Part shown: in pieces, positions 3,455 through 47,293 of the stretch
How the letters are laid out: the number at the start of each line of letters is the position of its first letter
Numbering within the stretch: the first letter of the stretch is position 1
Assembly: GCA_002840715.1 (NCBI GenBank)
Contig: PHBW01000001.1
Location: 1-64,000, forward strand
DNA from: Chloroflexi bacterium HGW-Chloroflexi-4
Lineage (GTDB): Bacteria; Chloroflexota; Anaerolineae; Anaerolineales; Anaerolineaceae
Length of the DNA stretch: 64,000 nt
Direction: 5' to 3'
Notes under the pieces: model-generated
What the model saw: the letters and a program-made list of their open reading frames with translations, nothing else
Database searches by the model: none
Told to the model about the DNA's origin: nothing
Program-made: the position numbers and the translations under genes

Positions 3455-6400
3455 ATGAAAAGGAAAATTAATTCAAAAAAAAGTAAGGCTAGACTTTTAC
3501 AGCTATTACAAAACAAACAAAAAATAAGAAAAAATGGGTTCATGGTATTTGTTCGCAATAATGACAACCTTGATCAAATTCAAGAAGTTTGTTTGGATCA
3601 AAGCTGGAACAACTGTCTTACAGCGCGTTACGAAGTGTTTATTGGTGAAAACTTTTTCCCAATATTATTTATGAAATTTATCAATGATCTCAATTTAGAT
3701 CGATATAAGAAGAAAAAGAATTTATCACAGAATACCGTTGTTGGAAAATTTTTACCAAACGCAAATGATCAACTATGGAATAAGATTCGAGATAATTGCT
3801 CGGATTTTTCCTACAACTCCCTACCTGAAATTGCATTTTTCTTTAATTCATTATCGGACTCCCTAAAAGAAGGGGATAGGTTTATCTTATTATGCGAAAT
3901 AAAAAATTTTGATAAAACAACCGATTTTTTTAAAGAATTCTTTTTTGATAAAGCACTAGATCTATTAACATTTTTGCCTGAACGTTTTGGTATTATTTTT
4001 TCAGGAATTTCTGAACCACACATACTTCCATTAGGCGAAAATTCGCAATTAATTGAAATCGAGGGAATCGATGAGATTGACCTCAATAAGAATATTGAAC
4101 GAAACCAACCAATTGAAAATGATAATGCATCGGGTGATGATCGACTTGGAATTACAGTAGAGATCAATTCTCTGGCAGATGCTATCGCAGCCAATGATAT
4201 GCAGCCCCCATTTGTTCTTGGTATCCTGGGAGGCTGGGGTAATGGTAAATCTTTTGTGATGCATCTCTTGAAAAATAGATTGCGTTTCATAAGAAAAATT
4301 GATATTACAAATCACATAATTGGAAAACAATATCCGTACATTGGACATCCTTACTTGGTTCAATTTGATGCCTGGACTTTTGCAAAAAATGATCTTTGGG
4401 CAAGTTTGATGCAGAAAATATTATATGATCTCAATCAACAACTTTCAATTGAGCAGTATCTTAAGGATGCTAAAGTAGATATTAAGAAGGGGATCGATAT
4501 TTGGAAACTGACCGATGACTTATCTACTGACCAGCTCAAAGCTTTTTCAGAAGAATTGGGAATAAAAACACTAAAGAACTTTACTCAATGGGATGATGCA
4601 AAACAGCTTTCTCAGGCATTATGGGATGCTCTTGAAAAGAACCGATCTGCAGAATTAAAAAAACTCGGAAAAGCAAAACTAGATCTTCAAAAAAGACGCA
4701 CTAATTTTGAGATCCAATTACATAAACTTAGGGAATCCTTCGAAGAAAAACTAGGAAAAATCAGAGTCGTTAATGAGATTAAAACCAGCAAAATAAATGC
4801 TGATTATTTCGCAGAACAAAAACAAGTTAACTCAAATATTGAAGTCACAAAAGCAAGAATATTGCTTGAAGAAGAACAAAAAACTCTGGGGATTGCTCGC
4901 AAGGCAGCATGGAACCCAATTAAAGACCAGATAAATGCAACCTTCAATAATTTTCTTCATATAAACTTAATCAAGTCTGAAGGAATGGAAAATAATGCGC
5001 CAATTTCTATTTGGGAAGTTTTTTCAAAAGTAAATCTACTACGTAAGTGGATTTACGGAATCTCACCTCAAAGCTGCATTTATATCCTTCTTGCAATAAC
5101 CCTTCCGGTATGCTTTGCATGGATATCAAAATACATTCCCACGTATGTTTCTACCGTTTTCGGTTCTACAACATTTTTAGGGGGATTATTTGCTTCTATA
5201 TATTCTTCCATAAATAAAGTTAATAAATTGATTGTACCTCTACAAAACGATTATCAATCAAAAATCAATGCGCAATTAGATAGTTTAACAGCGGAAAAAG
5301 AAGCATCCATTATGGAAAGGCACAACCGTGAAATAACTCCATTGGAGAAACAACTTGCCGAGCTTGAAATAAAATATCAGAATGACTTAAAAACCAAAAA
5401 CATTGAAGACCAGGAAAACATTAACTCAATAATGAGAGAAGAACAAGAAAAAATTGACTCTTTTACAACGATCGAAAACGAAAAAATCGCAAGCCTAGAA
5501 AAAACCGTCAAAGATCATATTAAGCGTGCTGGTATTCCAGGTCAAAGCAAATCAATAAATGAATTAGTAAAAACGCGAATAGAGTGTGGAGACTATGATC
5601 AGAAATGTGGCTTGCTTAATCAAGTGCAGCTTGATCTTGAAGAACTTACCAATGCTTTGATACCCCGCGTAGGAAAAGCAGGTTCCTTATTTCCTCGTGG
5701 AGATCCAAGGATATTTCTCTTCATTGACGATCTAGATAGATGTCCACCTGAAAAAGTCATTCAAGTGCTTGAAGCAATTCAATTGCTAGTGAAAACGCGG
5801 TTATTTGTAGTAATTGTCTCAATGGATGTTCGATATATTACGCGCGCACTTGAAAAATTTTACGAAGGAATATTATTACCAAACGGTGATCCATCCGGTT
5901 TAGATTACATCGAAAAAATTGTTCAATTACCTTACCGAATTCGGCCAATTTCTCCTCAAGGAATTTCAGATTATATTGAATCTTTGATCCAAGTCAATAC
6001 TACAGCCGTTCCAGGTGAGAATCGGTACAGCAACCAAATACCCCAAATAACTGGCTCGAAAACACAGATTTCTTCACCAAGGAAAAATTCGGAACGAATA
6101 GAAAATATTTTACCAACCATTGTTCAAGAATTTTCCCCTGAAGAGGTTGAAGCCTTAGAAAAAAGTGTGTTGCAAACAGCACTAAGCCCACGATCAATCA
6201 AACGGATAACCAATGTTATGAAACTTATCAAGACAATATGGTATAGAGAAGATAAAGATGACCCCGGAATTGAGATCAAAAAAACTATGATGGTCTTATT
6301 ATCATTATCTGCAAAATTTCCTGAAATTATGCGCCGGTTGCTTTTTGAACTAGAAAATAAATATCAAGACAATTCGAGTACCTCTCTAAGGATAAAGGTA

Positions 6401-6706
6401 AAGGCTGCATTGAAAGAATTATGTTCGCAATGGAGTCAAAAAGAAAACAATAAGGAGGGGTGGGAAACAATCCAGAAAAAATTATCAGATGAAACATTGG
6501 TACCATCAAACATTTCTTTACAGGATCTTGAATTATCAAATTTACAGTTAATCCAAGCATTCTCTTTTGTTGGGGAACTCACTTCCATCCCTGTTGACAA
6601 GGTAATTCAACAACACGAAGTCTCTTTATTAACTAGTTCAAATTTGATGCATTTAGAATCGAATAATAATATTCAAAGACCTAATCTAACTAATAGACAA
6701 GAATAA
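3455..6706 (+). CDS. KAP-family P-loop NTPase with internal membrane segments
   Basis: 1083 aa. Walker A (GGWGNGKS) is at about 259-266. Walker B (FLFIDDLDRC) is at about 755, separated by a long insert containing coiled-coil stretches (about 400-490 and 600-700) and two hydrophobic helices (about 541-557 and 567-586). This is the arrangement of KAP NTPases, in which membrane helices interrupt the P-loop domain and place the ATPase on the inner face of the membrane. The first ~200 residues are a separate, unrecognised globular domain. KAP proteins occur in bacterial defence systems and near toxins. The start is supported by GGAGGGAG 8 nt upstream. A role in membrane-linked defence is inferred from family and neighbours. 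Confidence 0.88.
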   Translation: MKRKINSKKSKARLLQLLQNKQKIRKNGFMVFVRNNDNLDQIQEVCLDQSWNNCLTARYEVFIGENFFPILFMKFINDLNLDRYKKKKNLSQNTVVGKFLPNANDQLWNKIRDNCSDFSYNSLPEIAFFFNSLSDSLKEGDRFILLCEIKNFDKTTDFFKEFFFDKALDLLTFLPERFGIIFSGISEPHILPLGENSQLIEIEGIDEIDLNKNIERNQPIENDNASGDDRLGITVEINSLADAIAANDMQPPFVLGILGGWGNGKSFVMHLLKNRLRFIRKIDITNHIIGKQYPYIGHPYLVQFDAWTFAKNDLWASLMQKILYDLNQQLSIEQYLKDAKVDIKKGIDIWKLTDDLSTDQLKAFSEELGIKTLKNFTQWDDAKQLSQALWDALEKNRSAELKKLGKAKLDLQKRRTNFEIQLHKLRESFEEKLGKIRVVNEIKTSKINADYFAEQKQVNSNIEVTKARILLEEEQKTLGIARKAAWNPIKDQINATFNNFLHINLIKSEGMENNAPISIWEVFSKVNLLRKWIYGISPQSCIYILLAITLPVCFAWISKYIPTYVSTVFGSTTFLGGLFASIYSSINKVNKLIVPLQNDYQSKINAQLDSLTAEKEASIMERHNREITPLEKQLAELEIKYQNDLKTKNIEDQENINSIMREEQEKIDSFTTIENEKIASLEKTVKDHIKRAGIPGQSKSINELVKTRIECGDYDQKCGLLNQVQLDLEELTNALIPRVGKAGSLFPRGDPRIFLFIDDLDRCPPEKVIQVLEAIQLLVKTRLFVVIVSMDVRYITRALEKFYEGILLPNGDPSGLDYIEKIVQLPYRIRPISPQGISDYIESLIQVNTTAVPGENRYSNQIPQITGSKTQISSPRKNSERIENILPTIVQEFSPEEVEALEKSVLQTALSPRSIKRITNVMKLIKTIWYREDKDDPGIEIKKTMMVLLSLSAKFPEIMRRLLFELENKYQDNSSTSLRIKVKAALKELCSQWSQKENNKEGWETIQKKLSDETLVPSNISLQDLELSNLQLIQAFSFVGELTSIPVDKVIQQHEVSLLTSSNLMHLESNNNIQRPNLTNRQE

Positions 6707-6782
6707 GAAACAAGTGTTACACGATGGATCTATCTTACATGATTCCAGAACTGACCGATAAACAATCCTATTTTGTTTCTCC

Positions 6783-7136
6783 ATGCAAAGTTATTCCTGC
6801 CCTTCTGAGTTTTGGAATTATGGTCCCAGAGAAAAACCTGAAAAGGAAGCGATAGATATTGCAATTGAAAAACTAAAAACAAATTGGGTTTCTGTAGTTG
6901 GGTCAAAGTTAGCTGAAATCACAGCACCCGTATGCTTCACCGGTAAAAAAAGCCGTCGGTTGCTGGTTAGTGCGAATTTTGCAACCAATCCACCTTGGTT
7001 AACCTGGTCAAAGAAATCGGCTGGAGAAGAAGGAAAAGTGTTTACTATGTTCTGCCAAAATATAAATGAGACAATTTTTCCGTTGGAAATTGACCACATC
7101 GATTTCATTGACTCAAAAAATCTAAAAGAGGAATAA
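6783..7136 (+). CDS. DUF721/DciA-like small protein (tentative)
   Basis: 117 aa. The middle reads like the DUF721 (DciA) fold: an amphipathic helix, then W-x3-VG-x-KLAEIT-x-PV and a strand ending RRLLVSANF. DciA-type proteins help load the replicative helicase. The match rests on this pattern only. There is no good ribosome binding site before the ATG at 6783, and an in-frame TAA at 6759 rules out a longer N-terminus, so the first residues are uncertain. The stop overlaps the start of the RusA gene (shared A of TAATGA), so the two are translationally coupled, which supports a DNA-replication or recombination role. Confidence 0.45.
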   Translation: MQSYSCPSEFWNYGPREKPEKEAIDIAIEKLKTNWVSVVGSKLAEITAPVCFTGKKSRRLLVSANFATNPPWLTWSKKSAGEEGKVFTMFCQNINETIFPLEIDHIDFIDSKNLKEE

Positions 7137-7543
7137 TGAAAATTTCCATTAAGGTAACCGGTCTTCCTCCCAAAAAAGACGGTGCCAGTTCAATGTGGCG
7201 CAAGGGAAGTGAATTCGAACGGTTACGGAATCTTAGAATTGCTGCCGTTCAGGCAATGAATGGCAGATCCCCTGCCACAAGCCTGATCCATCTAAACTTG
7301 AGACTCTATGCAGCTCCTGAAAATGGAGATCTGGATAACTTCATAACTGGTATCTGTGATGGACTGATGGCTGCCCACCCAAGAACTCCAATTGATATAG
7401 AATTTTGGTCTGGGATATCGGAACTTGCTCAACCTAACAAAAGTATCTGCTACACGGATGATAAATTAATCGCAAAAATCATAGCTGAGAGATTGACTTC
7501 AGATGCTCATGATCAGCATTATGAGGTGGAATTGGAATGGTAA
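7136..7543 (+). CDS. rusA-like: RusA-family crossover junction endodeoxyribonuclease
   Basis: 135 aa, the usual RusA length. Conserved acidic residues are in place: Asp65 and Asp67 in GDLDNF, Asp75 in CDGL, and the TDDK motif (Asp108, Asp109, Lys110). RusA dimers bind Holliday junctions and cut symmetrically using metal held by these aspartates. RusA genes are typical of prophages and integrated elements, so this marks mobile DNA. It overlaps the upstream DUF721-like gene by one base, and the nuclease gene follows after 3 bp, so all three are probably one transcript. Confidence 0.88.
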   Translation: MKISIKVTGLPPKKDGASSMWRKGSEFERLRNLRIAAVQAMNGRSPATSLIHLNLRLYAAPENGDLDNFITGICDGLMAAHPRTPIDIEFWSGISELAQPNKSICYTDDKLIAKIIAERLTSDAHDQHYEVELEW

Positions 7544-7546
7544 ATT

Positions 7547-8524
7547 ATGGCAAATAGCAATCGGTATAATGCACAATCTTGGCCTTATCCTCGCCATAAG
7601 GAATTTGAAGCTCAACTTCGCCAATCAAACGCGAATTGGTTTGCGGAAAAGAAATTTACTGTAAACAATCGAATCCCTTATTTATTAGAAAAATGGGAGG
7701 ATTGGCCAAATAATATTATCCTCCCCAAAGTTGCACTTTTCATCCAAAATGAACGGGGTGTAAGACAAAAGCATAACGAGGGCTTTCCGCTCCATAAATA
7801 TATTCATCACGGATTGAGCAGCCAGGCAATGCTCTTTAATCTTATTGGTCCTTTGGTAATTCAAGACGACTTTTTTCTTATCAAATCAGCTTTTGAGAAA
7901 CATGGAATTATCTGGCCAAAAGAAAATGTTATTGTAAGATTTGAACAAGAAAACCGGTCAATTTTTAATGAAGATTCTGGTCAACCAACATCAATAGATT
8001 TTGTGATTCAAGGTAAAGACAATAAACATTCTTTGTTTATCGAATCCAAGTTGGTTGAACATGAATTTGGTGGTTGTTCTTTATTTGCTGCAGGAGATTG
8101 TAACGGTAGTAATCCTGTTAAGAATTTAAGGAATTGCTATCTACATCATTTGGGTCGGAAATATTGGTTGCTTTTAGAAGAATATGGTTTTTTGGATAAC
8201 CCAATGTGGACTGGACCAATCTGCCCACTTTCGATATATTATCAGTTTTTCAGGGAAGTCCTTTTCGCACTTGAATCTGGAGGGGATTTTGTACTTTTAC
8301 ACGATCAACGAAATCCCACTTTCTATTGCGGAGAATATCCAAACGAAGGTGGATTGATGCCGTTTCTCATAACATTTATTCCTGAGGAGCTCAGGAAAAG
8401 GATCCATTCCATCAGCATTCAGCAAGTAATCGAATCCTATAAAGAGTCTGGGAAATTTGCATGGTTAAGTGAATTTGAAAAGAAATACAGCCTGATTGAC
8501 CCATCAAGGAAATTGAATCGTTAG
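7547..8524 (+). CDS. PD-(D/E)XK nuclease, PGN_0703-like
   Basis: 325 aa. The nuclease core is visible as TSIDFVIQG (Asp151), then a strand FIESKLVEHEFG (Glu166, Lys168): a PD-(D/E)XK site. A KYIHHGLSSQAMLFNL block (about 84-99) and NPTFYCGEY (about 260-268) are conserved with a second copy at 41339-42292, which keeps D, E and K. The family resembles the PGN_0703-type putative restriction endonucleases, which usually act without a linked methylase. Here it is in a RusA/GNAT operon (3 bp after rusA, 1 bp before the GNAT gene). Nuclease fold is sure; substrate unknown. Confidence 0.8.
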   Translation: MANSNRYNAQSWPYPRHKEFEAQLRQSNANWFAEKKFTVNNRIPYLLEKWEDWPNNIILPKVALFIQNERGVRQKHNEGFPLHKYIHHGLSSQAMLFNLIGPLVIQDDFFLIKSAFEKHGIIWPKENVIVRFEQENRSIFNEDSGQPTSIDFVIQGKDNKHSLFIESKLVEHEFGGCSLFAAGDCNGSNPVKNLRNCYLHHLGRKYWLLLEEYGFLDNPMWTGPICPLSIYYQFFREVLFALESGGDFVLLHDQRNPTFYCGEYPNEGGLMPFLITFIPEELRKRIHSISIQQVIESYKESGKFAWLSEFEKKYSLIDPSRKLNR

Positions 8525-10115: not shown

Positions 10116-11267
10116 ATGATAGAAAGAACATTGGCTTCCAAAGTGACTTCTCTGGCGCAGAAGTTCCAGGTGATCACGCTCACCGGTCCTCGGCAGTCTG
10201 GCAAGACTACCCTGGTCAGAGCCACTTTTCCAGACTTGCCCTATGTCTCTCTTGAAGAGCCTGATATCCGGCAGATTGCGCTGACCGACCCGCGTGGCTT
10301 CCTTTCCAATTACCCCAATGGCGTGATCCTGGATGAAATCCAAAATACACCTGAATTGTTCTCGTATATTCAGCGGATTGTGGATGAAAACCGCCAAATT
10401 CAATTTATTCTGACCGGTTCCTCGAACTTCTTGTTAATGGAAAAAATCAGCCAAACCCTGGCTGGTCGCGTCGCTGTCTTGCATTTGCTACCATTCTCTT
10501 TAGAAGAACTTGGACCATTGGTAGATTCTTACGAAAATCTGATTTTCAAAGGTCAATACCCACGTATTTACGACCGAACTATTCCACCAACTGATTTTTA
10601 TCCATCCTACATTCAAACCTACGTAGATCGGGATGTGCGCATGATCAAAAATATCGGGGATATTAATGCCTTCATCCAGTTCACGCAATTGTGCGCCGGC
10701 CGTATCGGGCAACCACTAAATAATGCCAGCCTGGCCAATGATGCCGGTATCAGCCCCAACACTGCCAAATCATGGCTTTCGATTTTGGAAAGTTCTTACA
10801 TTCTATATCGTCTACAACCATACCACCGTAATTTCAACAAACGGTTGATAAAATCACCCAAGCTCTATTTTTATGATACCGGGGTCGCCTGTTCACTTCT
10901 TGGTATACGCGAGCAAGAACAAGTCAATTTGCATTACATGAAAGGCTCCCTCTTTGAAAATTTGATTCTCAATGAGTTTATCAAACGTAGTTACAACCGG
11001 GGCGAGAACCGTCAGCCATATTATTGGCAGGATAACCACGGTAAAGAAATTGATTGCTTGTTGGTTAATGGTGAAAGGGTTACAGCGGTTGAGATTAAAT
11101 CTGGAAAAACAGTGTCCACTAGCTATTTTGAAAACCTAATATACTGGCGATCTCTTGCAGCCTTACCTGAGAATCAGGAATATGTGGTTTACGGTGGGGA
11201 TCAATCCATGCAAACCGGTGCCGGCACATTAATTAGCTGGAAGAATTTGGATCGCATTCCAGATTGA
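10116..11267 (+). CDS. AAA_14 / DUF4143 family ATPase
   Basis: 383 aa, the usual length of this common family. Walker A (TGPRQSGKTT) is at 23-32, Walker B (VILDEIQ) at 70-76, and a sensor-like LTGSSNF near 108. The C-terminal DUF4143 part contains a GSLFENLILNEF helix and a restriction-fold-like strand pair (EIDCLLV, then AVEIKSGK near 328). These ATPases are widespread and poorly understood; the DUF4143 part is thought to bind nucleic acid or partner proteins. It is a single gene, divergent from the RHH/membrane pair and probably regulated by the RHH protein. Confidence 0.88.
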   Translation: MIERTLASKVTSLAQKFQVITLTGPRQSGKTTLVRATFPDLPYVSLEEPDIRQIALTDPRGFLSNYPNGVILDEIQNTPELFSYIQRIVDENRQIQFILTGSSNFLLMEKISQTLAGRVAVLHLLPFSLEELGPLVDSYENLIFKGQYPRIYDRTIPPTDFYPSYIQTYVDRDVRMIKNIGDINAFIQFTQLCAGRIGQPLNNASLANDAGISPNTAKSWLSILESSYILYRLQPYHRNFNKRLIKSPKLYFYDTGVACSLLGIREQEQVNLHYMKGSLFENLILNEFIKRSYNRGENRQPYYWQDNHGKEIDCLLVNGERVTAVEIKSGKTVSTSYFENLIYWRSLAALPENQEYVVYGGDQSMQTGAGTLISWKNLDRIPD

Positions 11268-11529: not shown

Positions 11530-12972
11530 TTAAGAATTTTCGCGACACGGAAGGTGAGCACGGTCTCCACGTGCCAGACGACTCAAACCTGAGTTGCTGC
11601 AATCTAGGCATACTTTGTCAATTTGATGTTTGACAGAACACAACTCTCTATTCTCAGCGAATTCAATTATATGGTTTAGATTTACCACTTCATTGAACAA
11701 CCCTGTGAACATCATCATAAAGTCATTAACTACACGGGCGGCAGACATTGCATTAAGTGAAATTACATTTGGCTCTGAAATTTCATCATCATCAATATAG
11801 CGCTGCGCTCTTCTCTCCTTTTCTGAAAGACCTTCATTGGCAAGTCTACCCGCCGGGATAAGATTATTACAGCTTAAACATCCTCCACCAGAAAAAGGCA
11901 TTACCATCCTACTGGCAACAAGTATTTGGTCTACCTGGCGTTCTGTATTAACCAACACTTTTACTCCGATCTGTGCTCCAGGTATTAAATATTGATAGAC
12001 GATGGCATTAAATACAAGGCGACTTTGTATGGAGTCTGTAGCCAGAAAAAGAAAATCTACATCGACTAATTGATGCGCTATCGACTTATCAACGATATTT
12101 CCAACAATTGCTTCATACCGAATTTTTGGATTCGCTTGCTTAGCTACTTTCTGAGCAATAAGAACCTTATATTTGGCAAAACGTTTCCCAAGATACTTCA
12201 ACCACGGGTTTTTGGTTCGGGTTAAGAATGCTATAGCATCATGTTCTGTAGCTCCAACAATTCTCGGAAGATTAGTAAGATCAACGCGGTCAAAATCAAC
12301 TGCAACAATATGACCCACGCCTAAGCGTGAGACCAATTCGTTCAAGATTGATCCACCTCCACCTAATCCAACAATACCAATTTTTAATTTTGATAGAATT
12401 TCTTGCCCATTTTCACCTATTAGCCGAACATTTCTATCATATTTGGGGTCACTAAATTGCGTTCCTGCTAAAACTCTCGGAAATATTTTCTGTATTCGAG
12501 AACCGATAACGGTTACACTATCAAGTTCATAACGCCCATTTCGAGTCCAAATATCTCCTGCTACTGCATTCTTTGCAAATACTAATGCCCCCACTGGACC
12601 TCCTTTTGTGATGTCCAGTAAGGCTGGGTATCCTCGTTCATGCGATGCTAAATCGTCTGTAGAGAAAGCGACCGAATCATTCCCTCCATGACAATGTACA
12701 GCAAGGTAACAAAGATTTTGATCACAGCAGAAACTCGATTTTTCCGCAACAAATTCAGCAGTAAGTGCTCGATATCCATGTTTACCAGGGACATAGTCTT
12801 TACCATCCTTGGCCATAAATGTGTCCCGCGCTAATAAACGCGTGCCCCGAGGAGTTTCAACAATTCCCGCAGCGATAACTAACCCGTGCTCGTCATTATC
12901 TCCAGGGAAAAGATGCTTTTGGATTTTTTGAAATTGTCGATCGGTAAGTGTCAGCGAAATTGGAGTTTTCAT
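11530..12972 (-). CDS. JAB (MPN) peptidase fused to ThiF/E1-like adenylating enzyme
   Basis: 480 aa. The N-terminal third has a JAMM metal site: Glu28, HCH (His93, His95), then Ser104-x2-Asp107. The C-terminal part is an E1/ThiF domain with GLGGGGS at 202-208, VDFD near 225-228 and a conserved LTNLPR block; pairs of cysteines near the end (CLSC and CLDC) suggest a structural zinc. E1 enzymes adenylate the tail of ubiquitin-like proteins and JAB peptidases trim or remove them, so one chain carries both activities. The ATG at 12972 overlaps the E2-like stop (ATGA) and has AAGGA just upstream. It is the third gene of a Ubl, E2-like, E1-JAB operon. Confidence 0.88.
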   Translation of the reverse strand: MKTPISLTLTDRQFQKIQKHLFPGDNDEHGLVIAAGIVETPRGTRLLARDTFMAKDGKDYVPGKHGYRALTAEFVAEKSSFCCDQNLCYLAVHCHGGNDSVAFSTDDLASHERGYPALLDITKGGPVGALVFAKNAVAGDIWTRNGRYELDSVTVIGSRIQKIFPRVLAGTQFSDPKYDRNVRLIGENGQEILSKLKIGIVGLGGGGSILNELVSRLGVGHIVAVDFDRVDLTNLPRIVGATEHDAIAFLTRTKNPWLKYLGKRFAKYKVLIAQKVAKQANPKIRYEAIVGNIVDKSIAHQLVDVDFLFLATDSIQSRLVFNAIVYQYLIPGAQIGVKVLVNTERQVDQILVASRMVMPFSGGGCLSCNNLIPAGRLANEGLSEKERRAQRYIDDDEISEPNVISLNAMSAARVVNDFMMMFTGLFNEVVNLNHIIEFAENRELCSVKHQIDKVCLDCSNSGLSRLARGDRAHLPCRENS

Positions 12973-13352
12973 TGTTTCCTTATCCATTCAAGCACTTTGA
13001 GAAGTTTGATAGCCGCAGTATCATGCGTGGGATTCCAATGGTTAGATCTTCTTGAAATTTGAATTGCGTTCCGGTTATGCCAATTTATAGGTCCAGAAAT
13101 ACCTTGACCAAATCCAGCCCCATCGAATCTATGGATGTCAGGGTCGATAAAATGTGGATACACATCCGAACGCGGATACTGAAAGTTGATTGTAAATCCT
13201 ACCCAGGTTTGGGAGGGAGTATATCGTTCACCAATGCCTAAGTCATGTACAACAACATACGCCCCCCCCTGGTCCTCAGGATCGACATCAATTTTATGCT
13301 CCGCAAATACTTGCTTCAATTCAGCGATAGCGATTTCGACCTCAGGAGTCAT
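12969..13352 (-). CDS. E2/UBC-like protein without any cysteine
   Basis: 127 aa between the Ubl and E1 genes, the usual place of the E2. It has the E2-like pattern of strands ending in a YP-rich turn (YPRSDVYPHFIDPD), followed by GISGPINWHNRNAIQISRR. No cysteine occurs anywhere in the chain, so the thioester chemistry of a classical E2 is impossible; His and Trp residues cluster where the active site would be. It fits the cysteine-less prokaryotic E2-like families that accompany JAB-E1 fusions. GAGG lies upstream of the start. Family call rests on fold pattern plus context. Confidence 0.65.
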   Translation of the reverse strand: MTPEVEIAIAELKQVFAEHKIDVDPEDQGGAYVVVHDLGIGERYTPSQTWVGFTINFQYPRSDVYPHFIDPDIHRFDGAGFGQGISGPINWHNRNAIQISRRSNHWNPTHDTAAIKLLKVLEWIRKQ

Positions 13353-13361
13353 CTCAATTCC

Positions 13362-13640
13362 TCAACTATTATCATCCGGTGCTGTTACACGGAACTCGTC
13401 ATTTTTTTTGAGAGTTACACTTTCGGAATCAGAAATAGGCACTAATTTTCCGTTCCCTTTGACTCGAAAGAGTATGAAATCTTCTTGAATAGCAACCCCC
13501 TGTTGCATGGCGATCCGCTTAATTTCAAGACCGTTTGTTTTATGGTCCTGAAAAATCACGGGGTGGTTGTTCACATTGATGGTAATCGGTTTTCCACCGT
13601 TTCCGTTAGAATTATTATCCTTAACTTCGTCGAATTGCAT
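13362..13640 (-). CDS. ubiquitin-like (multiubiquitin-type) protein
   Basis: 92 aa. A flexible, Asn/Gly-rich start is followed by one beta-grasp domain: PITINVNNHPVIF, a helix TNGLEIKRIAMQQG, then FILFRV and a late KKNDEFRV strand, matching the Multiubiquitin domain pattern. The start at 13640 is fixed by AGGAGGT 4 nt upstream; the longer frame from 13670 has no such signal. The chain ends in ...APDDNS, so there is no C-terminal di-glycine for activation unless the tail is processed. It heads the operon with the E2-like and JAB-E1 genes and is presumably their substrate. Confidence 0.75.
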   Translation of the reverse strand: MQFDEVKDNNSNGNGGKPITINVNNHPVIFQDHKTNGLEIKRIAMQQGVAIQEDFILFRVKGNGKLVPISDSESVTLKKNDEFRVTAPDDNS

Positions 13641-13837
13641 TTTACCTCCTGCGCAAAAGCGCAAATACATTTTTAAATTGAACGAATTTTTACTTAAGAC
13701 ATTTTGCCGAATACTAATAGACTATTAGATTCATTTTGGGCTATCTCTTGATTTATTCTTGCCATTGTACATTCTCACATATCCTTAACTTATGATGTTG
13801 CGTTGAATATTCATGCAACAATTACAGTAAAAAAATA

Positions 13838-14494
13838 TTAGAACAAATTTTGATTTCCAAATGATTCTGCTTGTGAATGGAAAATCTTTTTATCCTCAGT
13901 AATGTAAATTAATTTAAGGCTCTTCAATCTTTTTGTGAATGCAGTTATAGTTACGCCAAATTCATTTTTAAGAGCATACAAATCCGGCCATTTAGTAATA
14001 TCAACGTCATTAATTGCTTCCATCAATAAGTGATGAGGCATAAGTAGATATGCCGCATACTTCTCTGCCTGAATTTCGCGTTTGTCAAGTTTTTGTTGCC
14101 TGCACAAATATGTTATCTTTTCTTTAGGCAATAATAGAGGGAGTTGAACTGCCTCGCTTTTCTTCGCAATATGAAGATCCCAATGCCCTACTTCATGTGC
14201 TTTTGTAAATGCTTCTGTACCAATATATTCTTCAAAATGATCTCGGTGACGTTCATTCATTAAGATTTTTTTACTTGAGGGGTTCAGGTACCCAAGAATC
14301 TTTTCCTCATTTGTGTCCTGAATATCATCCCAATCCATCCAAATATCAAGATATGATTCAATTATTCTATCAATGGGGATAGGAGGTTTTACGATTTTAC
14401 CATATTGAGATTCAAATCCAGCCAGCATAGCATATGCTTTACTCTCAATTTCGCTGTCTAGAATATATCTCTCGTCTTTAATCATACAATTCAC
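13838..14494 (-). CDS. immA-like: ImmA/IrrE-type metallopeptidase
   Basis: 218 aa. The zinc motif HEVGH is at 100-104 (in AHEVGHWDLH), and the third ligand is probably the Glu in IQAEKYAAYLLMP. ImmA-type peptidases cleave a partner XRE repressor and so release a mobile element or defence operon. The partner is the preceding gene, whose stop overlaps this start by 4 bp (ATGA). It may control the neighbouring ubiquitin-like operon, which lies 197 bp downstream on the same strand. Confidence 0.9.
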   Translation of the reverse strand: MNCMIKDERYILDSEIESKAYAMLAGFESQYGKIVKPPIPIDRIIESYLDIWMDWDDIQDTNEEKILGYLNPSSKKILMNERHRDHFEEYIGTEAFTKAHEVGHWDLHIAKKSEAVQLPLLLPKEKITYLCRQQKLDKREIQAEKYAAYLLMPHHLLMEAINDVDITKWPDLYALKNEFGVTITAFTKRLKSLKLIYITEDKKIFHSQAESFGNQNLF

Positions 14495-14835
14495 TCTTTG
14501 TCTTTATTCGATGCAATATTTAGCATTTTCTTAAGTTGTTCATTGGTCAGTTTTTGAGATTGCAATTTTCGAAGAAGAATACCTACGTCAGAATTTGACT
14601 CTACTGCTTTTCTGATTTGCTCGGGTGATATTTTTCCGGCAAGATCTAAGAGCCCTTCAGCATCAACTTCCAATACATTAGCCATAGCTCTTATTTTCTC
14701 TTCGCTTGGTGGATCTACCTTACTGTTTTCAATCTTGCTTAGGTAGGTAAAATCAATACATACCATTTCAGCAAAATCTCGTAGAGAAATCCCTTTCGAT
14801 ACTCGCAACTCTCTTATTCGGCGGCCAAAATCCAT
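14491..14835 (-). CDS. XRE-family HTH repressor, ImmA partner
   Basis: 114 aa with an N-terminal helix-turn-helix: IRELRVSKGISLRDFAEM, then DFTYLSKIENSKVDPPSEE. The C-terminal half is helical and charged and is probably the part cut or bound by ImmA. It is the first gene of a two-gene unit with a good sigma70-type promoter at 14860-14887. It resembles element-borne repressors that are relieved by ImmA cleavage after DNA damage or phage infection; the trigger here is unknown. Confidence 0.9.
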   Translation of the reverse strand: MDFGRRIRELRVSKGISLRDFAEMVCIDFTYLSKIENSKVDPPSEEKIRAMANVLEVDAEGLLDLAGKISPEQIRKAVESNSDVGILLRKLQSQKLTNEQLKKMLNIASNKDKE

Positions 14836-17223: not shown

Positions 17224-17460
17224 CTAGATTAACAGATCATTGAGCGCGTCTTCCGCGCCACCCTCTTCAGCTATGAAGAAGGAGTCATCAGACGGAAGTC
17301 CGCCCATTCGCAAGGCAGCTTTGACCGCACGTGCTTTGCACATATACCCTGCCCGATTGAAGAATTTGATCAGGTCGTCATCTTCGCCAAGACGCAATCG
17401 GAGGTGGATGTGCACAGATATTGCATTTACACCACCATTATGATCATTCTTTAGACTCAT
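17224..17460 (-). CDS. parR-like: ParR-like small adaptor, copy 1
   Basis: 78 aa. A strand VHIHLRLRLGEDDDLIKFF is followed by a basic helix CKARAVKAALRMG, an RHH-like layout, and an acidic tail EGGAEDALNDLL. In type II partition systems ParR binds the centromere and its acidic C-terminus caps the ParM filament; this arrangement fits. Its start overlaps the ParM stop by 4 bp. A close relative lies at 23096-23332 next to the second ParM, sharing the L-R-x-GEDDDLI pattern. Confidence 0.65.
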   Translation of the reverse strand: MSLKNDHNGGVNAISVHIHLRLRLGEDDDLIKFFNRAGYMCKARAVKAALRMGGLPSDDSFFIAEEGGAEDALNDLLI

Positions 17461-18446
17461 ACTTTCCTCCGATTAGCCTGTTGCTTGGCGAGCTTATACA
17501 ATCCTCGGCTGATCGAGATCACCGGTTCATCGGGAATATGTACCCTGCCGCTGAATCGTTCAATCAACAGTTCACGGAGTAAGATTGCTCCCCCACCCAC
17601 GATGATGAGTTGCGAAAACCTGCGCCATCGATTGCCCCAAGTTTTTTCAATCTGGCCGGTGACTTCCCTTGCCCATACAGGGATAGCCTGGCGGATCTCC
17701 AATTTTGAGGACCGCAATTTTGTATCGAGCTCACCAAGAGTATGCAGGTTATCTCCGTTGAGCAATTCCAACAACCTGCGTACACCCAGGGTTCGTCCGG
17801 CGGTCATGGCCTGAACTACAGTCCGGTCGTTGACCGTCAGGAGCTCCAACGTATTGAAGCCAATTGAGATGATCCCCATTTCCTGATTGAAATGAGCCCG
17901 CCTTTGCGGGATGAACTGTCCCTCATCGTCCAGCAGATAATCAAAGAGCGCACCGGAGGGTTGACTGGTCACTTTCACTTCACTAATCTGGATTGAGCAA
18001 TGCTGCCCATCAGCCTCCCAATCGTGCTCCCCCACCAACCACCGCTTTACGTTATCAGCGTTGGCGGCTGCCTGATCTCCGGATAACACTTCCAGAGGAA
18101 GACCAACAATCAAATTGATGGGAGTATCGATCATTCCGAACTGGTTCATATAGCGGCTGAGAATGCCATACACTATTGCTCGGGTTTCGGGAACACCGGT
18201 CATACGTTCATAGTCCAGGTTTTCAATCGGCCGTCCCCAGTCGTGCGCGCCCGGACCGACATAGAAATTCATGCCACCGACGCCCACCTTCATGGGTGGT
18301 TTGCGGTTGCGGAACCCTAGTAGCTGGCTGACCTGTTGGCCTGTATCGGCAGCGACAACAGCCTGAAGCTGTATCCCGCCGTGGTCGCCATAGAGCTTGT
18401 TTGAACCAGCACCAAGATCCTCGCCGAAGAATAATGGCTCACTCAT
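17457..18446 (-). CDS. parM-like: ParM-type actin-like ATPase, copy 1
   Basis: 329 aa, the usual length. Actin-fold motifs are in order: phosphate-1 EDLGAGSNKLYG near the start, phosphate-2 GIISIGFNTLELL near 190, and the adenosine motif IIVGGGAILLREL near 290. ParM polymerises with ATP and pushes plasmid copies apart. It overlaps a small gene upstream by 8 bp and the ParR-like gene downstream by 4 bp, so the three are one unit. A second, clearly related ParM lies at 23335-24330. Base composition here is markedly more GC-rich than in the flanks, suggesting a separate origin. Confidence 0.88.
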   Translation of the reverse strand: MSEPLFFGEDLGAGSNKLYGDHGGIQLQAVVAADTGQQVSQLLGFRNRKPPMKVGVGGMNFYVGPGAHDWGRPIENLDYERMTGVPETRAIVYGILSRYMNQFGMIDTPINLIVGLPLEVLSGDQAAANADNVKRWLVGEHDWEADGQHCSIQISEVKVTSQPSGALFDYLLDDEGQFIPQRRAHFNQEMGIISIGFNTLELLTVNDRTVVQAMTAGRTLGVRRLLELLNGDNLHTLGELDTKLRSSKLEIRQAIPVWAREVTGQIEKTWGNRWRRFSQLIIVGGGAILLRELLIERFSGRVHIPDEPVISISRGLYKLAKQQANRRKV

Positions 18447-19232: not shown

Positions 19233-20552
19233 TTATCTGGATTGCTGATTTGAAATTTTTCTGACTCTGGTCAAAGACATTTTTTGGTCAATTTCGGTTT
19301 CCACAGCAATACCAATTTCGGTTATTCCAAATCCCGTTAAGAGGGTTGGCGAGAGTAGGTCGTCAATGATGTTTGCTGCTTCAGGTTCAATACCTGGAAT
19401 CAAATGTCCATAGACATTCAGGGTGGTTGAAGGACGAGAGTGGCCTAATGTTCGGCTAACGCGAAGGATGTCCTTTAGATGTTTCAACATGATTGAAGCA
19501 GCAGTATGTCTGAGGTCGTGAAACCGAATTTCGGGCAAACCTGCCAACTCAAGAAGGGCTTTGAATTCAGCATCAAGGTTGCTCTGGTCAAATAACGTTC
19601 CGATTTCGGTCGGAAAGAGAAGATCATTATCCTGCCAAAGATTTCTCGCGCGTTTTTTCATTTCCTCGATTTTTTCTTTGTGCCGCATCAATAAATCCAG
19701 TGTGTTATCGCCCAGGTGAAGGGTACGATAGCTTGCCTGCGTTTTCAGCGAACATAGCTGCAATCCTTTGCCCGTTTCCCTTTGGACCTGTCTTCTTATT
19801 TTGAGCGTGCCTTGTAGAAAATCCACATCTTCCCACTTCAATCCAAGCAACTCACCTTGTCGGGGTCCGAGTTTTACCGCGAGATCATAAAGTGGCTCAC
19901 GAATATGTCCACGTTCGGCTATAAGCAATAAACGCACCTGCTCTTCGTTGAGGAATTTCATTTCGACTTGTTCAATCCTGGGTAATCTTGTCTTGTGCGC
20001 AGGGTTCGAGATGATCTCTTCATCCTCATACGCATCTTCCAAGGCATGATGCAATACCCTATGCATATGACGGATGGTTTGAGCTGTTACATCATCAAAT
20101 GACAGTTCGTCATAAAAAGCATTGACTTGCTTTCTGGTGAGTTTAGTAAGGCGTTCTTCTCCCAAGTAAGGAACAATGAATCTTCTTGAATACAAATCAT
20201 AATCTCGATAAGTATTAGGTTTTACCTGGTACTTCATTTTTGACAACCACCCATCCATCCATTCTTTAATAGTGACGGAATTAGTGTTATCGATGCTTGG
20301 CTGAATCGCGGGAAAAGAAGGAACATTGTTTTTCGATGCATAATTTGGATCCCCCTGGACTTGACTTATCCATTTATTGCATTCTGTTTTTGTCGGAAGA
20401 ACCTTGCTCACTCGTTTTCCGTTTTCAAGAAAGGCGAATGCGCGGAACTTGCCATTTGGCTTTTCAGTAATCGTCCCCTGATGCCAACCACGCTTATGTT
20501 CTTTCGTAACTTTTGGGTTTTCACTCTTGCTTTTGGTATTCTTCTGTTTCAT
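19233..20552 (-). CDS. int: tyrosine-family integrase of the 45-kb element
   Basis: 439 aa. An N-terminal AP2-like arm-binding segment (WHQGTITEKPNGKFRAFAF) is followed by a SAM-like core-binding domain and the catalytic domain: first Arg in KLGPRQGELLGL (about 228), HDLRHTAAS (about 345), LGH and the nucleophile in NVYGHL (about 380). All five catalytic positions are present. The start at 20552 has AAAGGAG 6 nt upstream; the longer frame from 20699 has none. It reads toward the att site at 18.9 kb and should catalyse insertion into tRNA-Arg. Confidence 0.93.
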   Translation of the reverse strand: MKQKNTKSKSENPKVTKEHKRGWHQGTITEKPNGKFRAFAFLENGKRVSKVLPTKTECNKWISQVQGDPNYASKNNVPSFPAIQPSIDNTNSVTIKEWMDGWLSKMKYQVKPNTYRDYDLYSRRFIVPYLGEERLTKLTRKQVNAFYDELSFDDVTAQTIRHMHRVLHHALEDAYEDEEIISNPAHKTRLPRIEQVEMKFLNEEQVRLLLIAERGHIREPLYDLAVKLGPRQGELLGLKWEDVDFLQGTLKIRRQVQRETGKGLQLCSLKTQASYRTLHLGDNTLDLLMRHKEKIEEMKKRARNLWQDNDLLFPTEIGTLFDQSNLDAEFKALLELAGLPEIRFHDLRHTAASIMLKHLKDILRVSRTLGHSRPSTTLNVYGHLIPGIEPEAANIIDDLLSPTLLTGFGITEIGIAVETEIDQKMSLTRVRKISNQQSR

Positions 20553-20707
20553 GTCTACTCCTTTGGTTGAATAAAGGAGTGACATTTCAGCGGGTTGATC
20601 GTTCGTCTCGGTTGTTAAGGTGCTAAGGATGCTATTTTTAAATTGTAACATCCTTAGCAATGCCTCATCGTAAAAACCTTGTGGAAATGAACCTGCCATT
20701 TCAAGCT

Positions 20708-26284: not shown

Positions 26285-27559
26285 TCAATCGACTCTCTCA
26301 GGTACCCGTCGTTGGATTTCTAAGGAATGTGTTTCGAGAAATTCCCATCTCTGTCGATTTTGTGCAGCCCAATTTAATAAAGCTTTATAAATAGGGGCAT
26401 TTTCATGCTGAGCTTCGATCTGGTCAATGTAGCTTTTGAATAACCAAACCATGGGGAAAGCATAAGGATCTTTGCCAATATTCTCCAAGTCGGTTTGTGA
26501 CATTAATGCTTTGAGGTAACGGATGAGTGTAGTGGGATCTGAGATCGAATTGACTGGATCGATCAACGATAAATATTGAGTAATGCGACGGAAAACGTGA
26601 TCTTCAATTTCATGTAAGCTTTCTGACCAGCGCTCATCGATTTTATATAGATTGTTAAATGCCGTTATTTTATTGCCGGCCTCAAACTCACGTGCTGGCC
26701 TCAGTTCTAATTTCATGGGGTGTAGGAATTTATTTTCACGAGGATCTCGCTTAACAACAGCAATATAGGTTTTTTTACTAAATGCGAGATCTAACTGTTG
26801 ATATGGAAGAATAAAATCAACCAACTGAAAATGAAGTCCATTCGATGTTAGAGGATCAATATCACCTTTGATGTAACTATTACAACTTGAACAGATGGGA
26901 ATTAGGTTTAAAGGATGACAAGAAAGATGTGGATAAATTGATCGCGGGAAAAAATGGTCAACACTGGTGTAGATATGTTTTACTGTCTTTGTGCTATATG
27001 CAGATCCATCACAGACAGCACAGATAAATAAACCCGGATTTAGTAATTCAAATTCTTGCACAAAATCTTGGCGAGTATACTTCTTGCTGGGTGCCGGGAA
27101 AATACAGGCCGGAAATCCAGACTGCCACAAATCATAAAATTCATACAAAAAATCTCTAGCACCTTTTCTCCAATCCAAAGTTTCATTTTCCAGCACTGCA
27201 ACTCTAAAAGCAGCCGCCTTTGGACGGTAAAGCAGGAAAATGTCATTGATGATATCTGAAATAAACTCAGACTTATCAGCTTGGGGTCCATTCGCAAATT
27301 TGTTAAGTGGTTCAACAAGTGATTTTCTTATGCCCTTTTTGCCCGTCATGATCCATCTGGCTATAGCCTCACTTCTACCAGAAAAACGTCTCTTAGATTC
27401 CAAATGCGCTTGTAGAACTGGCGTGAACACATTCGCATCTAGAACCATATTTTCGGTAATGCCAATCTGTCCTGCTGCTTCGAGCACAGACACTTGTAGC
27501 ACCAGAATGTCTTGTAACATTCGCTTTGCATGAGGAAGCTTAGATACCTGGTGGATCAT
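26285..27559 (-). CDS. HNH endonuclease partner of the AAA ATPase
   Basis: 424 aa. The HNH site is in the middle: CAVCDG, then SVDHFFPRS, an LSCHPLNLIPICSSCNSYIKGD block giving the second His, Asn and zinc cysteines. The flanking regions are helical. The start overlaps the AAA ATPase stop by 4 bp (ATGA), so the two are translationally coupled. An AAA ATPase plus HNH pair is the Septu (PtuA/PtuB) layout, and such pairs also occur inside type I restriction operons, as here. Nuclease call firm; Septu-like role inferred. Confidence 0.82.
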   Translation of the reverse strand: MIHQVSKLPHAKRMLQDILVLQVSVLEAAGQIGITENMVLDANVFTPVLQAHLESKRRFSGRSEAIARWIMTGKKGIRKSLVEPLNKFANGPQADKSEFISDIINDIFLLYRPKAAAFRVAVLENETLDWRKGARDFLYEFYDLWQSGFPACIFPAPSKKYTRQDFVQEFELLNPGLFICAVCDGSAYSTKTVKHIYTSVDHFFPRSIYPHLSCHPLNLIPICSSCNSYIKGDIDPLTSNGLHFQLVDFILPYQQLDLAFSKKTYIAVVKRDPRENKFLHPMKLELRPAREFEAGNKITAFNNLYKIDERWSESLHEIEDHVFRRITQYLSLIDPVNSISDPTTLIRYLKALMSQTDLENIGKDPYAFPMVWLFKSYIDQIEAQHENAPIYKALLNWAAQNRQRWEFLETHSLEIQRRVPERVD

Positions 27560-29139
27560 TGAAGATTCTGCTCCCCAAGTTGATCAATCTCAAGCTGCAC
27601 CCTGTAAAACCAATACCCAGGCGCGATCTCATTTTGTAGTTTTTCTAATTCATCGCGAGATTCTGACCGGGCAATTTTTTCGCGAATATAGCTAACGCTG
27701 TGCGAACCACTGGCAAACTTTGTTCCAAAAACATGCACCATAATATCGCTCGGATCTGCACCTAATGTGCGGATTCCTGGTTGCATTACAGCTTCATCTC
27801 CTTCAACATACTGTCCTAAGCGTCGGAACACAAGGATATCTTCTTGGCTAACATCAGTTAGAGCAATGCTAGAGTGGGTCGAAATAATGGCGTGGCTGGC
27901 GCAGCCTTCCATTATTTGGTCTAGCATGTGAACAATCTCTCGTTTCCAAACATCGTTGAAATGTACTTCGGGTTCATCAAGAATAATGAGCAAATTATCT
28001 GCGCGGAATAAAGCAAACAATGCCATACGCCCTAAGAAGCTACGTTCACCATCACTAAGCCAATCAAACAAGTGAAGCATAGTTGGCTGCAGGTCGACTT
28101 TTCCTGCTGGTTGATTTGACTCAGGAATTCGCTTTCTAAGGAAAATATTTACTTCCTGTAATGGTGCATCATAGTAAGGACGATGTTCAAAAAGTAAATT
28201 AAGGAATTGGAATAACAATATCGGTGAGTCATATAAGCCAAATATCGAGGATAGTTTATCTTGTTGGTATTTAGTAATTTGTTGTTCAATTTCAAAAATA
28301 AGCAGCCTATCTGCGCCTGATTGAATTATTTGGTTTGCGGCATTCTCTAAATTGGCAATGATTTCTACCTGTGGTACAGGTGTCAAATCCTGGTGTTGGC
28401 GGATCCTCAGCGAAAAACTTCGCAAATCTTCTAATTCAATAGCATTCAATACAGGCTGAAGTACCTGATAAGTTATATTTTTATCCAGTTTATCTTTTAT
28501 TGAGGCCAACAATCCACATAAAGTAACTAAAGGAAAACGGTCTTGGTAGATATATAGAATGTTCTGTTTAGCGTTAAGATCATTATCATCCTCAGCAATT
28601 TCAGGCGATTTGTGCCCTGGCAGTTCATTCAAATATCGCTGTTCCTCTTTGGTCTCGTCATAAACAGCAACTGGATCTTCTTGGATTTTTTCTGTTTCGG
28701 TTGCCAATTCTCTTTGCCAGGCCACTTCATTTCCAGTTGTGTAGATCACAACCTGAGCAGGCAGGTTTTCTGGTCGAATTTTTTCTGCTCTCTCTTCACC
28801 CTGATCTTCATGATAAACCAACTGTTTTAGTGGATGTTGGTCATCACTTGGATCAATATTTGTTACTGTTATAACTTGTTCCTCTCCCGATTTCTTAGTT
28901 ATCGAATAAGTGACCTCAATAGGGATAGGAAAACTATAGTTTTCAGTTTGAAGAGTAGCGAATAATCTAGACAGTATTTGAAGGACTGTTGTTTTCCCCG
29001 TGCCATTGACGCCGGCGAGGAAATCCAAGGCATATTTTTGCTCTGGGTTAAGCTCCCCTACTAGATTTTTGCGATCAAAATCAATATTGATATTGCGGAG
29101 GACCCGATACTGGCCAATACGTAGATTAAGCAGCTTCAT
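27556..29139 (-). CDS. restriction-associated AAA ATPase (RecF/ABC-like)
   Basis: 527 aa. Walker A (AGVNGTGKTT) is at 42-51, the ABC-type signature WLSDGERSFLGR near 360, Walker B (LLIILDEPEVHF) near 386 and a switch His in IISTHSS near 420. A charged helical insert lies between. This matches the restriction-system-associated AAA ATPases that accompany type I operons and also resembles PtuA. It overlaps the upstream methylase by 14 bp and the downstream HNH by 4 bp. Such ATPases hold the partner nuclease inactive until a phage signal frees it; this is known for Septu-like systems and assumed here. Confidence 0.82.
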   Translation of the reverse strand: MKLLNLRIGQYRVLRNINIDFDRKNLVGELNPEQKYALDFLAGVNGTGKTTVLQILSRLFATLQTENYSFPIPIEVTYSITKKSGEEQVITVTNIDPSDDQHPLKQLVYHEDQGEERAEKIRPENLPAQVVIYTTGNEVAWQRELATETEKIQEDPVAVYDETKEEQRYLNELPGHKSPEIAEDDNDLNAKQNILYIYQDRFPLVTLCGLLASIKDKLDKNITYQVLQPVLNAIELEDLRSFSLRIRQHQDLTPVPQVEIIANLENAANQIIQSGADRLLIFEIEQQITKYQQDKLSSIFGLYDSPILLFQFLNLLFEHRPYYDAPLQEVNIFLRKRIPESNQPAGKVDLQPTMLHLFDWLSDGERSFLGRMALFALFRADNLLIILDEPEVHFNDVWKREIVHMLDQIMEGCASHAIISTHSSIALTDVSQEDILVFRRLGQYVEGDEAVMQPGIRTLGADPSDIMVHVFGTKFASGSHSVSYIREKIARSESRDELEKLQNEIAPGYWFYRVQLEIDQLGEQNLQ

Positions 29140-31558: not shown

Positions 31559-31561
31559 TGG

Positions 31562-32824
31562 TTATAACTCTCCTCGAAATGCTTGCGCTAAAATTGCCTG
31601 CTCCAAATCAAGTATCATTTTTCCTGTTGCATTCTGATCCTTTTGCATTTGAAGGATTTCATTCTGGATAGAATAAACTTGAGCAATGATTTTTTCTTGT
31701 ATCTTTGGGTTTTCTGGAACGGGTATTTTCACTTTCTTCAATAACTGCGCATTCATGTTAGGCTGTGCTCCACCTCTTGGAATTATTTGCCTCCAATAAT
31801 ATGGGGATTGGAAGAACCAATATACAAAATCTGGACTCGCATCCCTTTCTATTTGTAATCGAATCAAATAGGAGGCGAACACTGCTTCCGGGGGAGCAGA
31901 AATTATGAAGGTTTTCCCGGTTGTTGCACCCGTTCGGGCAAAGACAATATCGCCGTGAATTAATCGATACCGATCTAATTCCCGCTGGTTACATTCACAA
32001 AAAGGAACTGTATTCCAATCGACCATTCCATTTTGTATATCAGTAATCCTTAAGAACTTTGGACCAATCGGTTCACTTTTTGCAGACGTGGTAAATCCAT
32101 ATTGAGGATTTTTACTAATCTCTTCAATTGTTTTTAACCTCCAACCTTCAGGAAGTAACCGGTCAGGATTTGGAAAAAGTTGACCTAGTGTTGATAATAA
32201 TAAGCTGTTTGTATCCTCAATAATCCTTTGATTGATCTCCCGCATCTCCCGCACCTCGGACAGCAGCGCCGCGATCCGCGCCACAATTTGGCGTTGAATT
32301 CCAATATCAGGTAAAGGTATGTCTACTTCGGATAAACTATCAACACTAAAACCGGCCTGTCCAATCCATTTATTACAATTTGCTGCAAAAAAACCCCGGG
32401 ATTGAAGATCGCGAAGGAAGAGAGCTAACCATTTTGGATCAATTTGTTCTCGATTTCTAACTCGTAATCGATTGATATGGTTTGAAAAAGCAACTTGCAT
32501 TGGTTGTCGCACAATCCCAGTTTTGCCGACTAATTCAACACTATTTGTGTTGTTAAATAAAACGTCACCCTCAAGCAGGAAATAGCGATCCACTCCCGTC
32601 TGATAATCATTAGGAATATGAACAGTATCCGGAGTGTAGACCACTTCACCTTCGGTAGTAATATTGAAAGGTCTAAAGTGAGGTAAACCAGAAGCGATGG
32701 CACGACTCTTAGGGCAGGAAAAACCACCTAATATGTCGACCAGGTTTTGATCTATCTTTACCTTAGCCCAGGATGATGGCATCTGGCCAATCACTCTATT
32801 TTTAAATAAGAGATCAATAGGCAT
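31562..32824 (-). CDS. hsdS: type I restriction specificity subunit
   Basis: 420 aa with two target-recognition domains. The first opens with PSSWAKVKIDQNLVDILGG; the second has PEGWRLKTIEEISKN and FLRITDIQNGMVDW. A central conserved helix (IGIQRQIVARIAALLSEVREM) and a C-terminal copy follow each domain. Start 32824 is chosen because GGAAGGTGAG lies 8 nt upstream and the ATG comes directly after the HsdM stop. HsdS sets the bipartite recognition sequence of the HsdM and HsdR complex. Confidence 0.92.
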   Translation of the reverse strand: MPIDLLFKNRVIGQMPSSWAKVKIDQNLVDILGGFSCPKSRAIASGLPHFRPFNITTEGEVVYTPDTVHIPNDYQTGVDRYFLLEGDVLFNNTNSVELVGKTGIVRQPMQVAFSNHINRLRVRNREQIDPKWLALFLRDLQSRGFFAANCNKWIGQAGFSVDSLSEVDIPLPDIGIQRQIVARIAALLSEVREMREINQRIIEDTNSLLLSTLGQLFPNPDRLLPEGWRLKTIEEISKNPQYGFTTSAKSEPIGPKFLRITDIQNGMVDWNTVPFCECNQRELDRYRLIHGDIVFARTGATTGKTFIISAPPEAVFASYLIRLQIERDASPDFVYWFFQSPYYWRQIIPRGGAQPNMNAQLLKKVKIPVPENPKIQEKIIAQVYSIQNEILQMQKDQNATGKMILDLEQAILAQAFRGEL

Positions 32825-32828
32825 TGAT

Positions 32829-34553: not shown

Positions 34554-34578
34554 AAACCACCTTTAGGAACCATTAAAT

Positions 34579-37275: not shown

Positions 37276-37353
37276 AGTTTATCCAACCCTAGTTAAGTAT
37301 ACACTCGAATGGGTTTAGACTTTACAATTTTAACTAATTGAGATCGATTTAAA

Positions 37354-38634: not shown

Positions 38635-38637
38635 GTT

Positions 38638-41184: not shown

Positions 41185-41338
41185 GGTATCCTCCCGTAAC
41201 AACAATTATGCAATTATATATTATTGGTTTTCTTGTAAAAAGTAATTGCAAAAATTTCTATTTTACTAAACTACAAGTTAATTATAGAATGAATTAGGTT
41301 TAGTGTTTGTATTTATGTATATGGAGGGAGATAGAATA

Positions 41339-47277: not shown

Positions 47278-47293
47278 GATCCAAACCAAAAAG

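Follow-up and report, generated by a model that had tools for sequence, protein, structure and literature searches.

Chloroflexi bacterium HGW-Chloroflexi-4 carries an operon that raises a simple chemical question: how could a ubiquitin-like protein (Ubl) be activated and transferred when its E2-like partner contains no cysteine and its own C-terminus lacks Gly-Gly? The operon lies within the window, by which we mean the whole stretch of DNA that was analyzed (64,000 nucleotides of contig PHBW01000001.1). The initial annotation had recognized the order Ubl, E2-like protein, JAB-E1 fusion as that of a conjugation operon, and these three minus-strand genes were indeed found where they had been placed. 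Read 5' to 3' on the minus strand, the full order is CapH-like gene, CapP-like gene, a 197-base gap, Ubl, E2-like gene, and JAB-E1 gene (Table 1). The sequence AGGAGGT at 13650-13644 precedes the Ubl start at 13640, and an alternative longer Ubl ORF begins at 13670. Downstream of the operon is a convergent AAA_14/DUF4143 gene (10116-11267).

Table 1. Coordinates of the operon, its putative regulators, and individual sites within the window
Feature	Position	Strand	Evidence
BubA-like ubiquitin-like protein (Ubl), 92 aa, single beta-grasp domain	13362..13640	-	Pfam Multi_ubiq 3.3e-8; structure model; ribosome binding site
BubB-like E2/RWD-fold protein without Cys, 127 aa	12969..13352	-	Pfam Prok-E2_E 4.3e-6; alignment with E2s of other Bub operons
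BubCD-like JAB-E1 fusion, 485 aa	11530..12987	-	PDB 9ea4 4.3e-21; ThiF 1.7e-26; JAMM residues
CapP-like M78 metallopeptidase	13838..14494	-	PADLOC capP 4.7e-16; Pfam Peptidase_M78 1.3e-6
CapH-like helix-turn-helix regulator	14491..14835	-	PADLOC capH 4.1e-10; Pfam HTH_3 4.8e-15
C-terminal DDNS codons of Ubl, Ser being the final residue	13365..13376	-	Conservation in 18 loci
Ser100 codon of E2-like protein, candidate acyl-carrying residue	13053..13055	-	Ser in 32/33 rows, Cys in the 33rd; Cys in a second genome, G116
Tyr397 codon, E1 crossover-loop region, speculative acyl acceptor	11797..11799	-	Tyr in 35/35 aligned E1s
15-bp palindrome with 7-bp arms, possible operator	13714..13728	.	Between regulator genes and Ubl

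All three core proteins had recognizable relatives among bacterial ubiquitination-like (Bub) systems. The Ubl matched Pfam Multi_ubiq (PF14452) at 34.0 bits against a cut-off of 24.5, and the six top-ranked PDB entries for a structure model built from five sequences (mean pLDDT 80) were all multi-ubiquitin proteins (best E 2.4e-4), with 9cd2 and 9d59 being the best of these. The E2-like protein matched Prok-E2_E at 26.9 bits (cut-off 25), while the fusion protein matched ThiF over residues 183-338 and, by phmmer, the PDB entry 9ea4 ('Citrobacter BubCD') over residues 12-425. The JAB portion had no Pfam match and was recognized from the full-length match to 9ea4 together with its JAMM residues. 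PDB sequence searches with the window's E2 and Ubl yielded chance-level matches only, with no BubB from the E2, and neither PADLOC nor NCBIfam held a model matching either protein. The E2 structure model adds little, since its pLDDT was 52 and its best matches had E values above 0.1 (the first three being two CBASS Cap2 proteins and Citrobacter BubB, E 0.14-0.23); it was also rejected as too poor for locating the active site in three dimensions. Based upon the Multi_ubiq, Prok-E2_E, and Citrobacter BubCD matches, we classify the operon on sequence grounds as Bub and assign it to a subtype that lacks BubE and has a serine-ended Ubl. It has a Multi_ubiq-family Ubl, a BubCD-type JAB plus E1, and a hydroxyl residue replacing the E2 cysteine, as Ser100 aligns with the BubB serine. 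The reading that we favor, and consider probable, is that of a CapH/CapP-controlled Bub-type conjugation module of a distinct 'DDNS' subtype, operating through an oxyester relay via Ser100.

As initially annotated, the Ubl ends in PDDNS followed by a stop at 13362, and this serine end is shared by its relatives. The last residue was Ser in all 18 loci of the window's clade, which span the window's own phylum and four other named ones and comprise 17 distinct DNA sequences; the last four residues were DDNS in 16 of them, the exceptions being HEDS (M. huakuii) and DDDS (G313). The terminal Ser is encoded by five codons from both Ser codon blocks, followed by three different stops, and it is among the seven fully invariant window positions of 80 in a 17-row Ubl alignment (the Ubl of L003 is identical to that of L017 and stands outside it). 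Since the relatives end at the same residue, an alternative Ubl frame ending in Gly was rejected. Counted by eye, the Ubl ends 9 residues past the last-strand aromatic in 17/17 rows, and the stand-alone Ubls from other Bub types have a Gly 9-10 residues past this aromatic in 11 of 12 cases, some continuing into an extension beyond it. The lone Gly-less case is the second Ubl of G308, from a locus with DUF6527. Given the equal distance from the aromatic, the terminal Ser appears by eye to occupy the position of the mature Gly in other Bub classes. Judging from those classes, a Gly end would be a defining Bub feature, and it is this Gly that is absent from the window's clade.

It had also been proposed initially that the Ubl might undergo a processing step. 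The anatomy does not demand one, because the terminal Ser lies as far past the aromatic as the Gly of other classes, although the intact JAMM motif would permit it. If so, the JAB domain might first trim the DDNS tail, leaving E1 to activate a residue further upstream, which we regard as unlikely. The JAMM residues are intact throughout the clade (H98, H100, S109, and D112 in 16/16 rows; E33 in 15/16 as aligned and in 11/11 of a smaller alignment), and other Bub Ubls do carry extensions past Gly needing cleavage, as seen in the Ubl-E2 fusions and in B. quebecense, with its tail TTEG-SDGSPSHS. However, neither a conserved Gly nor any other candidate precedes DDNS in the tail, which is more variable there than in DDNS itself, and by eye the tail length already equals that of the Gly-ended classes. 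Furthermore, conservation within the tail peaks at the last residue, a pattern that would be odd for a discarded end, even though the residue could be a protease signal.

The favored oxyester relay places its central step at the E2-like protein, in which the reported lack of cysteine held for all 127 residues. We aligned 33 E2s, 16 from the window's clade and 17 from other Bub operons (those of L003, L004, G160, G159, G116, and G250 are outside the alignment). Classical thioester chemistry requires a catalytic Cys in the E2, and none of the 16 clade E2s has Cys at the active-site column. Between one and three cysteines are found outside the active site in five of these proteins; the window's E2 and 10 others are entirely Cys-free. 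At the Ser100 column, Ser was present in 32/33 E2s, the single exception being Cys in genome G124. The latter protein is a Ubl-E2 fusion (L056, 6509-7375) with Cys replacing the Ser of other Prok-E2_E proteins and a Ubl part ending in Gly-Gly. A second Cys case with the same motif was found in G116 (L015). Both the near invariance of the Ser and its natural exchange with Cys suggest that Ser100 is likely the acyl-carrying residue in place of an E2 cysteine. A sequencing error or frameshift hiding an E2 Cys was rejected as an explanation, as relatives from other phyla share both unusual traits of the operon.

The initial annotation had offered two options, either direct transfer from E1 to the target after processing or a chemistry that is not classical. 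The lack of an active-site Cys in 16/16 clade E2s supports the second option, whereas the first is less likely given the almost invariant Ser at the E2 active-site column. Direct transfer would make the E2-like protein a dead RWD-like adaptor, with E1 handing the Ubl to the target by itself, a route that Iyer et al. likewise put forward for inactive E2s (PMC1779556). Such a role would suit a protein without any cysteine, and Iyer et al. called such domains catalytically inactive E2/RWD-like. Still, a near-invariant Ser that is naturally exchanged for Cys at the active-site column speaks against an inert adaptor, which we consider quite unlikely.

A similar picture emerged for the E1 portion of the fusion. 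The only cysteines kept in 16/16 clade E1s are two CxxC pairs (370, 373, 460, and 463), as in zinc-binding E1-like enzymes, and a 35-row JAB-E1 alignment, 16 rows of which are from the clade, contained no conserved crossover-loop Cys. It should be noted that L003 is outside this alignment and that the transposase-interrupted E1 of Deinococcus D7000 (L023) is outside both the alignment and the tree. As the kept cysteines are all in CxxC pairs, no conserved Cys is left for an E1 thioester. Bub pathways reportedly use oxyester rather than thioester intermediates, and the lack of a conserved catalytic Cys in both E1 and E2 would agree with this. The adenylation residues N239, R242, and K274 are present in 16/16 clade rows and D318 in 15/16. 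Tyr397, which is Tyr in every aligned E1, is a speculative E1 acyl acceptor but may be structural. At window residue 316, two residues before the catalytic Asp, Cys was observed in 14/19 other-type E1s and 0/16 DDNS-type E1s. A pathway without any conjugation is very improbable: here E1 would make a Ubl-nucleotide or sulfur-carrier product, and in an MccB-like version the JAB would remove the Ser to expose the Asn for an AMP adduct, in keeping with the action of MccB on a C-terminal Asn, the presence of this E1-like enzyme among the PDB matches (3h5a, E 2.3e-4), and a penultimate Asn in 16/18 loci, but Asp replaces that Asn in 2/18, MoeB, tRNA dehydratase, and UBA5 all outscore MccB, and the E2 gene, superfluous for such a pathway, is kept in every intact locus.

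Another trait of the subtype concerns DUF6527, which we take to be the BubE protease of other Bub operons. Annotation places it in 10 of the 11 plasmid loci of other types (all but Halorarius), a hand-picked, non-random set from lists of 128 and 134 records, but it was detected in 0/18 clade loci using a small HMM and in 0/9 clade plasmid loci by annotation. No PF20137 was found in the window's genome (85.6% complete), and it is absent at the genome level from 7/9 genomes holding the DDNS type. Of the other two, G308 has PF20137 on a separate contig beside a second multi-ubiquitin gene, while the Iningainema genome has it at a position that is not relatable to the locus. Within the window's phylum, 9/10 other genomes with Prok-E2_E also lack PF20137, which means that the DDNS subtype cannot be diagnosed from this absence. 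Loss of DUF6527 was likewise rejected as the cause of the Ser end; there is no strict link, as Ubls ending in or containing Gly occur in other operons of the phylum that lack BubE.

We infer the covalent steps of the favored conjugation module from this pattern of conservation. With its adenylation residues kept, the E1 domain would adenylate the Ubl C-terminus, after which the acyl group would pass to E2 Ser100 as an oxyester instead of a thioester, as the conservation of this residue and its natural Ser/Cys exchange suggest. The Ubl would then be attached to a target, and the JAB domain might remove or trim it, since the operon lacks the DUF6527 protein found in other Bub operons. A C-terminal Gly is the site of activation in sulfur carriers, ubiquitin, and the majority of known Ubls; here, by conservation and position, the activated residue would most likely be the gene-encoded terminal Ser that replaces it. 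A bolder version, which we advance tentatively, is that this Ubl clade has an E1-activated, gene-encoded terminal Ser within an all-oxyester pathway in which the JAB is the sole protease and the terminal hydroxyl could accept another Ubl to form ester-linked chains. If true, E1 activation of a C-terminal serine would possibly be novel. No description of a C-terminal Ser on a Ubl was found in the literature searched, the coverage of which excluded the two most relevant Bub papers, and this silence is weak evidence of novelty.

The genes upstream of the Ubl, which the initial annotation had left unmentioned, exhibit the layout of a CapH+CapP control module, consisting of an HTH repressor followed by an M78 protease beside an immune operon. 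CapH was the second PADLOC match of the window's HTH protein, after HTH_VI (4.8e-11). Among clade neighbors, capP was the best PADLOC match for 6/6 M78 proteins tested, and capH was matched by 4/5 HTH proteins, with that of G308 scoring better with RmrA. These regulators are not universal, as by annotation M. huakuii has none beside its operon and Rhodococcus has a RelE/HigA pair. From their family, the CapH/CapP-like proteins would be expected to turn the operon on after DNA damage, and DNA-damage-type Cap regulators are similarly found with many Bub operons. According to PMC13373217, CapW or CapH+CapP adjoin 219/544 Bub operons, and phage protection by Bub operons has so far not been demonstrated. 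A palindrome like that upstream of the window's Ubl was found in none of 11 other clade loci (13 loci were scanned in all), so it is at most a possible operator.

Relatives of the operon are few and widely separated. A search of genome contigs with the JAB-E1 protein identified four loci, all from Nostocales and 61-63% identical, whereas the window's JAB-E1 shares only about a quarter of its residues with plasmid homologues of other types. A tblastn search of plasmids returned 128 records, and nine window-type plasmid regions were fetched: two each from Nostoc, Mycolicibacterium, and Mesorhizobium and one each from Rhizobium, Deinococcus, and Rhodococcus. A search of 400 genomes of the window's phylum with the E2 alignment matched five, namely the window's own and four others, and among 386 genomes of the Calothrix phylum the query's own genome was the sole match. 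Megablast of window positions 1-25000 against plasmids gave no match. No relative was found among viral contigs, for which reason a viral origin was rejected. The rare and scattered distribution of the window-type operon suggests horizontal transfer. A JAB-E1 tree of 35 rows separated the 16 DDNS rows from all others by a single branch (97/77; recovered in 96% of 200 bootstrap trees), with an SH-aLRT support of only 77, and the window grouped with Nostocales (100/99). The placement of six other rows on long branches is unsure. One locus, L065 of Nostoc commune SO-36, was dropped as a remnant in which no Ubl or E2 was found. In the Nostocales loci L002, L003, L005, L016, L017, and L065, the operon adjoins or sits inside a defense-island-like DUF1156/DUF499 cluster, which is annotated in L017 and L065 and represented by like ORFs in the other four.

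Among the closest known systems are Bub operons such as that of Citrobacter (BubA/BubB/BubCD plus DUF6527; PDB 9ea4, 9eae, 9ea8, and 9d59; L057 and L058), which similarly combine a Multi_ubiq Ubl, a Prok-E2_E protein carrying Ser in the active-site column, and a JAB-E1 fusion. The window differs in having no DUF6527, a Ubl ending in DDNS rather than Gly, and a JAB-E1 in a separate branch; unlike the Citrobacter Ubl-E2 fusion, its Ubl is a separate single-domain gene. Bil (bacterial ISG15-like) operons also encode a Ubl, E1, E2, and JAB, but their E2 uses Cys and their JAB is a separate protein. Type II CBASS Cap2/Cap3 shares E1-E2 and JAB chemistry, and Cap2 was the top, albeit weak, match of the E2 model; however, Cap2 uses Cys, and the window's operon has no CD-NTase. 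A cysteine-less E2 in such an operon is not itself new, as in 2006 Iyer et al. reported polyUbl operons that encode an E2/RWD-like protein lacking cysteine together with a JAB-E1 fusion (PMC1779556). Their type 6e operons share the Ubl, the Cys-less inactive E2/RWD-like protein, and the JAB fused to E1, but usually encode two or three Ubl domains (a single domain is listed for one, as in the window) as well as a metal-binding protein, absent from the window's operon, that bears the signature C-x3-C-x(35-38)-H-x2-C (PMC1779556). Retention of a terminal Ser throughout a natural clade that spans several phyla offers a test of whether the Gly rule is chemical or historical, and the exchange of Ser and Cys at the E2 site within one family makes the origin of thioester E2s testable as well. 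With three genes, the module is small enough for reconstitution in a laboratory strain of E. coli.

Several other features of the window are worth mentioning. Positions 6-1856 encode a GmrSD-type restriction endonuclease with both N and C domains. The 3455-8524 region contains a KAP NTPase with a QatA-like match (NCBIfam 1.9e-24, well under the cut-off) followed by small genes, as well as a 'Restriction Endonuclease associating with ARP' protein (PF22558, 3.9e-43), and is probably a further defense cluster. A restriction-type cluster on the minus strand (27556-41205) encodes an N-6 DNA methylase, a type I/III restriction helicase (ResIII, EcoEI_R_C), and an AAA_5/EVE-domain protein, while a 1140 aa TPR-CHAT protease-like protein is encoded at 47255-50677. 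Lastly, a plasmid-type actin-like gene (ALP_N, MreB-like_C; 17457-18446) lies near an ORF that is integrase-like by sequence (19233-20699), and this pair suggests a mobile element.
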